This document shows, piece by piece, positions 51,540 to 54,431 of a stretch of 64,000 nt of DNA. Every line of letters begins with the position of its first letter. Positions within the stretch are counted from its first letter, which is position 1. The position numbers and the translations under genes were made by a program. The DNA is taken from contig NZ_SNUT01000002.1 of assembly GCF_012027615.1 (NCBI RefSeq), positions 62,001 through 126,000 of the forward strand. Direction: 5' to 3'. The notes below the pieces were generated by a model. That model made no database searches. It was given only the letters and a program-made list of their open reading frames with translations, and was not told the origin of the DNA. This DNA comes from Thermococcus sp. 21S7. GTDB lineage: Archaea > Methanobacteriota_B > Thermococci > Thermococcales > Thermococcaceae.

Positions 51540-52020
51540 ACATATGGCGTTCTCGCCCTTTTCGGGCCCCCGGGACTTCCGCGGGAAACCTGTTGGACAC
51601 TCCCCGAGCTGACCTCCTCCCAGCCAAGGCGAGGGTTCCAATGGGTTAACCCCCTCGCCATTAACGGGTGGTTGGTTCGCGGGCCCATTACTTACTCCCG
51701 TCGCCAGTTTCGGGTTCGCCCAAAGGCCCGGTCTCGGGCCCGTTACCCCTACCGGCAAAGCCCGATTGGGGTTATGGTTTCAGAGGCCACCATTCAGGGT
51801 TTCAAACTGCCCAACGGGCAGTTCTCAAAAGGACGCCTTACGGCGTCAACCCTCCAATGCCGGAGGGTAACGTGAAACCCCTCATCTCATCGGGTTGTTT
51901 TTACAGTGGCCTCTCCAAGGCCCTTATTAAATTGGGAAATTATTTAAGGGTTTTCGGTGATTCAAGGCTCGTTGGGTTGAAAACTGTACCCGCCCTTAAA
52001 GGGCGAGACTTTCAAAAGAA
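51540..52020. other. GC-rich, highly structured region without a convincing gene
   Basis: No frame here shows a recognisable protein, but inverted repeats are dense. GGCGAGGG/CCCTCGCC lies at 51628-51659, GGCCCG-GTCT-CGGGCC at 51725-51740, a branched cloverleaf at 51782-51914 (listed separately), and TTGAAA...CGCCC-TTAAA-GGGCG...TTTCAA at 51977-52015. Two short direct repeats starting GGGCCC also occur near 51681 and 51737. Candidates are a structured noncoding RNA, a non-autonomous mobile element or a derelict insertion sequence. TATA-like ATTATTTAAGG near 51940 may serve thyX. Confidence 0.5.
51782..51914. ncRNA. Predicted cloverleaf-like structured RNA
   Basis: Five perfect helices nest without conflict. 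AGAGGCCAC (51782-51790) pairs with GTGGCCTCT (51906-51914). Inside it GGGTTTCA (51797-51804) pairs with TGAAACCC (51873-51880). Inside that are three hairpins: CTGCCC-AAC-GGGCAG (51807-51821), GACGCC-TTAC-GGCGTC (51832-51847) and CCCTCC-AATGCC-GGAGGG (51850-51867). All arms are perfect Watson-Crick, so the transcribed strand cannot be told. I do not recognise the family. Confidence 0.45.
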
Positions 52021-52068
52021 AAAGGTAAACCTAATAAACCTGGGCCTTTTCTATCTCCGGTGACGCGA

Positions 52069-52865: not shown

Positions 52866-54431
52866 TTAAAGTTCCTTCGCGGTTCTCTTTTCAACCAGCA
52901 CTATCCTGTCCACGAGCTTGGTGGTGGAGGGCCTGTGGGATATGGCGATCAAAGTTATTCCCCTGGCCTTTATTTTCTCAATTATCTCGGCTTCCACGTC
53001 GGGATCGACTCCCGAAAGGGCCTCATCGAGTATCAGCACCTCGGGCCTGCGGATTAGGGCCCTGGCCAGTGCTATCCTCTGGCGTTCTCCAAGGGAAACC
53101 TCCCTGTGTCCTGGTCCGATTTTCTCATCAGGAGGCAGGTCTACTTTTGCCACCTCCATCACATCCCTCAGGGCTTCTTCGTCAAATTTTTCCCAGAGGG
53201 TTATGTTCTCCCTAACGGTTCCCGGGAATACGAACTCGTTGGTCTCCACCAGAACTATCTTCTCCCGGGGGTTCCTGAACTCGAAGGCCGGCACACTGTT
53301 TATCAGGACTTCCCCTTTCTCGGGGCGATAATGACAGGCTATTATGTTGGCGAGGGTTGTTTTACCGCTTCCGCTCTCCCCGATGATGCCGATGCTGTCC
53401 CCGTGGGATATCCTCAGGTTTACATTCTCCAGTATCCCGCTGTACGAGACGTTTTTCAGCTCTATCGACTCAACCCTCATAAGCGTCCTGTCCCCAAAGC
53501 TCTCCTCCTCCATGTTGAGCGCCTCGTCAATCCTCTTCAGCGCGGGGTAAGATTCGGGAACGTGGCTGAGATCGCTTAAAATGACGACCAAGGGCTCTAT
53601 GACCTCGCCCGCCATCATATAAAACGCCACCAGAGTTCCGGTGTCCACCTTCCAGAGGAGTCCGACCAGAACGCTGATCAGAGGCACGAGCCGATAGAGG
53701 GTGTTGTACAGGTACCGGTATTTCAACGATGCGAGCACCAGGCTCTTAACTGAGTTGTACCATCCACTGCACTCTTCGTTCAGCTTCCTTACGGCGCCGT
53801 TTAGGGCGCTTGTGTTCCTGATGGTTTTCCTGCCTTCAAGTTTTGTCCTTATCCTTTCAACCAGCATTGAGAATCTGCTCCTCTCTTTGGCAGACACTTT
53901 AGCGAGTTCTCCAACCTGCTTTTTGAATAGAAGGACTGTTATTATCAAAAACGGCAGCAACACGAGGGAGAGCCGCGGGCTAAGGAGGAAGAGGGCTATG
54001 AGATACGCCCCGAAGCTTACCGCGTTCACAATCAAAGCTGGTATCAAGGCAGCCGATAGGGAGCTGACATAAACAACGTTTGAAATCAGGTCGGTGAGAT
54101 ATTCGCCGGGGGTTTTTGCCCTGAAGGTCTCCTCCTTTGCGTGCAGGATTCTCCTGTAAATTCGGCCGATTATCTCCACCTGCATTGCCCTCTTCGATAC
54201 CTCAAGGAGGTAGGTAACCACGAAGCTCAGGGCGTTTATCAAAACGAGAAAAACTCCCAGTGTGAGGATCCTACCAGTACCCGGGCTGTTTATGGCGTCT
54301 CTCAGCATCAGGGCAAAGCGAATGTTGAGGTAAGAAACAACCAAATTCACGAGAACGATAACCGCCTGCCTCTTCCTCAGGCTTCTTGACAGCTCCCAGT
54401 ATCTGGAGAACGAGTGCCTGAGCACGCTCAT
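52866..54431 (-). CDS. ABC exporter half-transporter (fused membrane and ATPase domains)
   Basis: The 521-residue protein has about six membrane segments in residues 20-290, then an ATPase domain with Walker A GIIGESGSGKTTLAN (about residue 350), signature EVSLGERQRIALARAL, Walker B VLILDEALSGVDPD and a switch histidine in AISHRPS. It would act as a homodimer. The substrate (peptide, drug or lipid) is unknown. GAGGAGGTACTGTA precedes ATG 54431 and an AT-rich TATAATATAAT-type promoter lies just upstream. It is flanked by thyX and by a thyX remnant, implying transfer together with thyX. Confidence 0.88.
   Translation of the reverse strand: MSVLRHSFSRYWELSRSLRKRQAVIVLVNLVVSYLNIRFALMLRDAINSPGTGRILTLGVFLVLINALSFVVTYLLEVSKRAMQVEIIGRIYRRILHAKEETFRAKTPGEYLTDLISNVVYVSSLSAALIPALIVNAVSFGAYLIALFLLSPRLSLVLLPFLIITVLLFKKQVGELAKVSAKERSRFSMLVERIRTKLEGRKTIRNTSALNGAVRKLNEECSGWYNSVKSLVLASLKYRYLYNTLYRLVPLISVLVGLLWKVDTGTLVAFYMMAGEVIEPLVVILSDLSHVPESYPALKRIDEALNMEEESFGDRTLMRVESIELKNVSYSGILENVNLRISHGDSIGIIGESGSGKTTLANIIACHYRPEKGEVLINSVPAFEFRNPREKIVLVETNEFVFPGTVRENITLWEKFDEEALRDVMEVAKVDLPPDEKIGPGHREVSLGERQRIALARALIRRPEVLILDEALSGVDPDVEAEIIEKIKARGITLIAISHRPSTTKLVDRIVLVEKRTAKEL

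Follow-up and report, generated by a model that had tools for sequence, protein, structure and literature searches.

A tnpB-less IS200/IS605-family element before thyX of Thermococcus sp. 21S7 carries a conserved cloverleaf and a predicted guide-RNA scaffold

Directly before thyX, Thermococcus sp. 21S7 carries nearly 500 bases without a gene, crowded with perfect inverted repeats. What is this stretch, and why would such a structure persist there? The original prediction, made for positions 51540-52020 of the window (the whole stretch of DNA analysed, 64,000 nucleotides), suggested a structured RNA, a palindromic mobile element or the guide-RNA end of a lost transposon. The present analysis reveals that 51609-52024 is a non-autonomous, tnpB-less IS200/IS605-family (PATE-like) element; the first 69 bases of the predicted region (51540-51608) are flanking DNA.

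The inverted repeats were found where they had been predicted, at 51782-51914. A perfect 9-bp outer helix (51782-51790/51906-51914) encloses inner helices at approximately 51797-51804/51873-51880, 51806-51813/51816-51823, 51831-51836/51841-51846 and 51849-51855/51862-51868. This segment folds with −61.9 kcal/mol (z −7.2) on the plus strand and −65.0 kcal/mol (z −6.5) on the minus strand, and none of 200 shuffles folded as well, in agreement with the statement that random DNA would not give this. The entire 481 nt (51540-52020) folds at z −5.3 and −4.9. Of the predicted helices, the 8-bp GGGTTTC/GAAACCC helix covaries across copies no better than shuffles and was rejected as a family feature; a local AACCC/GGGTT hairpin is kept across copies in its place. 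A 17-nt inverted repeat (51551-51567/51992-52008) spans the element boundary, with one arm in flanking DNA. Searches of the hairpin stretch returned no tRNA or tmRNA and no Rfam family at the gathering threshold, and coding sequence in the element is disfavored by indels and compensatory changes among copies.

Comparison of copies resolved the locus into the following parts, all read on the minus strand.

51609-52024, minus: whole tnpB-less IS200/IS605-family (PATE-like) element, 416 bp; copies in its own genome and in the genus, empty site in one relative (G002)
52025-52028, minus: TTAC target or transposon-adjacent motif, single copy (GTAA on the plus strand); precedes the left end in most copies and is single at empty sites
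51953-52024, minus: left end, with a hairpin at about 51990-52007; profile shared with tnpB and tnpA-tnpB elements, terminal motif also in tnpA-tnpB elements
51940-51956, minus: promoter-like BRE/TATA motif CGAAAACCCTTAAATAA, conserved in copies; RNA start predicted near 51922-51926
51782-51926, minus: cloverleaf RNA domain, outer helix plus four hairpins, with an alternative 5′ hairpin at 51908-51923; from covariation and covariance model R1
51609-51784, minus: omega-RNA scaffold and right end, terminating in ...GGAGGTCAG; from the profile match to tnpB right ends, double-change cells and a weak HgcC match
51593-51608, minus: predicted guide CTCGGGGAGTGTCCAA, the first 16 nt of the flank, directly past the right end; position and length by analogy with ISDra2 TnpB

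That the element is mobile, as had been proposed, follows from dispersed copies and from sites that are empty in relatives. Within its own genome, 32 places match the hairpin stretch; long copies cover about 51609-52028, and many more match by their ends only. On the minus strand, TTAC followed by (A/C)TTTTTCTTTTGAAAGCC marks one end of the copies and GGCGGGGAGGAGGTCAG the other. Two full-length relatives (C7:38148-39621 and C5:73746-75224) have the same ends with a 438-454-aa TnpB between them, classed as OrfB_IS605, Cas12f1-like_TNB and guided_TnpB, and elements with both tnpA and tnpB bearing these ends were found in other species. As TnpB is read in the minus sense of the window, the left end lies at 52024 and the right end, which holds the omega-RNA scaffold, at 51609. 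The 416 bp contain neither a tnpA nor a tnpB gene, and the element is thus non-autonomous. We also observed at least 14 terminal-only forms of about 44-46 bp in this genome among the loci examined (e.g., L014, L015, L017, L028 and L030 near 1501-1540). They read TTAC, then ATTTTTCTTTTGAAAGCCTCGCCC..GGGCGGGGAGGAGGTCAG, with the left-end hairpin joined straight to the right end, and resemble the 52-bp terminal-only PATEs of Haloquadratum.

Empty sites reveal how the element inserts. One relative (G002) has the neighboring gene and thyX without the element, and its joint of CCCCGAG with GTAAACC equals both flanks; eight further relatives have the GTAAACC region upstream of thyX without the element. 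For a second copy, on contig C3 of the same genome, three relatives (G059, G058 and G035) carry one continuous stretch across the insertion point, and the joint aligns without a gap in G059, G058 and G029. The empty sites of these two copies indicate precise insertion without target duplication, as expected for IS200/IS605. Membership of this family is thus seen both in ends common with tnpA/tnpB elements and in insertion 3′ of a fixed TTAC without target duplication. In addition, the element is protein-free with near-terminal palindromes like those of IS605, and needs no terminal inverted repeats, as in PATEs. A MITE of a classical DDE transposon was rejected because the ends differ and the empty sites lack a target-site duplication. 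Plasmid and phage collections gave no match to the element.

Mobility had also been argued from an exchanged thyX segment, and here we differ: the element inserted precisely and separately, 36 bp ahead of the thyX start. The 3′ end of thyX occurs twice (52657-52778/54616-54736, 122 nt, 87.7% identical), on either side of an ABC-transporter gene (52866-54431, minus strand). This repeat suggests that recombination or an insertion took place at this end of thyX, and is another matter. In one of the eight relatives with the GTAAACC region (G004, L122 at about 1300-1510), an oppositely oriented remnant of a tnpB element stops within a few bases of the same TTAC before thyX, so the site has been hit independently.

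To place the interior, three parts of the element were made into profiles, and each was tested against 15 tnpB loci alongside shuffled controls. The profile of the left end hits nine tnpB or tnpA-tnpB elements (E 2e-17 to 2e-8). The 175-nt right-end profile aligns virtually from end to end with all 10 elements of the clade with a TnpB of about 440 aa (E 1e-16 to 1e-31), and matches none of the five loci with the other TnpB type (about 394-413 aa); in the coding copies these 175 nt overlap the tnpB 3′ end. Like a TnpB omega-RNA, the right end is a scaffold homologous to the tnpB 3′ end with a conserved structure. The profile of the cloverleaf (about 140 nt) matches none of the 15 tnpB loci. Upstream, a CGAAACCCTTTTAA motif is 79-100% conserved per position in 59 copies and is followed, after about 20-24 nt, by a conserved TAnTAAGGCC, a spacing as in BRE/TATA promoters; we regard it as promoter-like, its function being predicted from sequence. 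The RNA would accordingly be about 310 nt of structured minus-strand transcript, reading cloverleaf, then scaffold, then flanking guide.

Compensatory changes across copies, in line with the proposal of a structured RNA, support both RNA domains at the level of sequence comparison in about 60 copies; 60 full-length copies were collected, and one (L087, a tnpB right end) was excluded from later counts. In 51 copies of the cloverleaf, aligned independently of the structure, pairing holds in 90.4% of the cells of the five helices, compared with 37-53% when the partners are slid, and 87 cells show double changes where shuffles predict 33.5 (0 of 500 shuffles reach 87). The scaffold has 96 double-change cells against 32 after shuffling, a figure that leans towards the structure, which was predicted from the same alignment. 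A long-range 5′-3′ closing helix, GGCCUC/GAGGUC, keeps its pairs and never changes on both sides, and is therefore neutral. In the minus sense the consensus folds more stably and G-U cells outnumber A-C cells (316 versus 200); both observations favor an RNA in that sense. The covariation could partly reflect folding of single-stranded DNA. A K-turn in the scaffold is unconvincing (a CUGA-like motif in 40 of 59 copies, a box C-like RUGAUG in 12 of 59).

The reading we prefer, at a probability of roughly two in three, is a non-autonomous element that encodes a structured minus-strand guide RNA and is served by TnpA and TnpB in trans. Both ends of a tnpA-tnpB element are retained, together with the promoter-like motif, and tnpB would have been replaced by the RNA of cloverleaf and scaffold, whose 3′ end would run into the flank as guide. 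TnpA provided in trans would move the element as single-stranded DNA. TnpB made by coding elements of the same clade would take up its guide RNA, and the loaded TnpB would cut the empty TTAC-plus-flank site after excision, so that the element is restored. The cloverleaf perhaps stands in for the tnpB mRNA in folding or protecting the 5′ part of the RNA, or gives the RNA an advantage in competing for TnpB. This reading draws on the copies with their shared ends, on TnpB and tnpA-tnpB elements with the same ends, and on the empty sites. It draws equally on a scaffold, but not a cloverleaf, homologous to tnpB 3′ ends, on covariation of both domains, and on the minus-strand preference. Finally, it takes in the spread of the element (51 of 94 genomes), its co-occurrence with TnpA and TnpB, and the expressed T. 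kodakarensis HgcC RNAs that are not associated with transposase genes (PMC4247193). Transcription of the 51609-52024 copy itself is something we infer, and its putative mobilization by TnpA agrees with the co-occurrence with TnpA across genomes (p = 9e-5, uncorrected for relatedness).

A search of archaeal genomes by covariance model, as had been recommended, was run on 94 Thermococcales genomes; model R1 of the cloverleaf matches 51 of them, in five of six genera, with up to 20 copies per genome. By DNA search within the genus, the cloverleaf occurs in 12 of 15 genomes with TnpA and in 10 of 46 without (Fisher p = 9e-5), and its model-based copy number tracks the number of TnpBs (Spearman 0.73), both values being uncorrected for relatedness. 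The 21S7 genome has about 10 near-full-length TnpB matches, at least three of the matching clade. Two results count against our reading: a TnpA search of this genome gave no match, and one genome with the element (G050) shows no TnpB match. Three loci match the cloverleaf model in genome G064, presumably P. abyssi, none of them sRkB/sRkC or sRk48/sRk52. In a genome of another genus (G068, L269:1501-1954), a cloverleaf is followed within about 90 nt by sequence like P. abyssi sRk48/sRk52. The wider claim, namely a guide-RNA-only transposon family across most Thermococcales genera in which a cloverleaf replaces tnpB in a two-domain, trans-acting omega-RNA of about 310 nt, is tentative, and we hold it at somewhat less than even odds.

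The strongest competing explanation is a passive PATE, a tnpB-deleted IS605 derivative spread by TnpA whose hairpins are only DNA structures, with no RNA function left. Haloarchaeal PATEs are known, and one keeps a piece of the sequence encoding the TnpB C terminus (PMC3119063); the association with TnpA and the 14 or so terminal-only forms of 21S7, counted among the loci examined, also fit. Nevertheless, those same forms imply that the ends alone may suffice, so that the interior needs another reason. The conserved promoter-like motif, the scaffold covariation overlapping former tnpB coding sequence and a conserved domain of about 140 nt not found in tnpB elements also speak against a passive derivative, and a pure DNA constraint poorly predicts the excess of G-U over A-C cells. 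We consider this explanation unlikely. Very improbable is that copies are domesticated regulatory RNAs, partnered by TnpB or L7Ae, that act in cis or trans on genes of the host, in this case thyX. In favor of this, the element lies close to thyX, related P. abyssi RNAs bind L7Ae, and sRkB possibly has a link to the gene beside it (PMC3124441). Against it, insertion sites vary between genomes and few copies have the box C-like motif. Nor is any effect on thyX indicated: the GTAAACC region, which relatives without the element also have, is intact, the RNA would be read in the direction leading away from thyX, and elsewhere in the genome the guide finds no exact target next to TTAC, near matches being no more frequent than in the control. 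Action of the guide on another gene was rejected on the same lack of an exact target.

Our preferred reading of a trans-served guide RNA finds a close counterpart in ISDra2, whose TnpB binds a right-end RNA with its last ~16 nt from flanking DNA and has been proposed to cleave the empty donor joint beside the TAM (PMC8612924). Like ISDra2-type tnpB elements, the present one has target-adjacent insertion, no target duplication, a right-end scaffold and a predicted guide from the flank, and the likeness to TnpB omega-RNA stems from the homology of its scaffold to tnpB elements of the same genomes. Unlike them, it lacks tnpA and tnpB, has a conserved cloverleaf in the place of tnpB, and is predicted to use its own promoter and TnpB in trans. 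The PATEs of Haloquadratum are likewise protein-free IS605 derivatives with near-terminal palindromes and also exist as terminal-only forms of about 50 bp (PMC3119063); in contrast to these, the Thermococcales element has a promoter-like motif, an omega-RNA scaffold and a new RNA domain conserved over five genera.

The scaffold also touches known archaeal RNAs. Against Rfam HgcC (RF00062, gathering score 50), tnpB right ends score 60.0 (L222:2702-2852, plus), 55.5 (L215:760-879, minus) and 52.5 bits (L229:1296-1405, minus), and these matches appear to be the TnpB omega-RNA scaffold with the start of the guide. HgcC and sot0042 (RF02656) match the 3′ domain of several element copies below threshold (HgcC 30-38 bits), and the 51609-52024 copy matches HgcC weakly in its scaffold part (18.7 bits). 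Since tnpB right ends lie above the threshold and element copies below it, the simplest identity for HgcC is the omega-RNA scaffold. The cloverleaf lies outside both models, so that the description of the locus as undescribed stands for that domain only. A truncated element copy overlaps an ORF start at G012:C1:1474313-1474576, in a genome that we take to be T. kodakarensis KOD1. T. kodakarensis expresses HgcC RNAs, three of them from transposase genes, and HgcC4 and HgcC5 are not associated with one (PMC4247193). The truncated copy fits the description of HgcC4 and may be identical to it. In P. abyssi, sRkB and sRkC are standalone RNAs with promoters of their own and are related to a tnpB 3′ end; the element resembles them and sRk48/sRk52 as repetitive, ORF-independent intergenic RNAs related to tnpB (OrfB) 3′ ends (PMC3124441). 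Identity with these RNAs was rejected, as their loci do not match the element profile (E 0.6 for sRkB/sRkC). The literature searched, whose coverage is incomplete, gave no earlier account of tnpB-less omega-RNA elements in Thermococcales.

The three alternatives first proposed thus turn out to apply together. The idea of a guide-RNA end of a lost transposon is borne out in the homology of the scaffold to tnpB 3′ ends; it falls short in that the element is no mere relic but belongs to an organized family with its own conserved domain. The conserved cloverleaf is what is new here, PATEs and omega-RNA/HgcC being already known, and the long-orphan archaeal RNA family HgcC is offered a simple identity. 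A TnpB omega-RNA is normally cut out of the transcript of tnpB itself, which links nuclease and guide. If our reading is true, a widespread guide-RNA-only element, apparently with its own promoter and a new folded domain, would provide relatives of the ancestors of Cas12 with a naturally occurring guide RNA from a separate gene, and the protection of elements by TnpB in trans would become directly testable.
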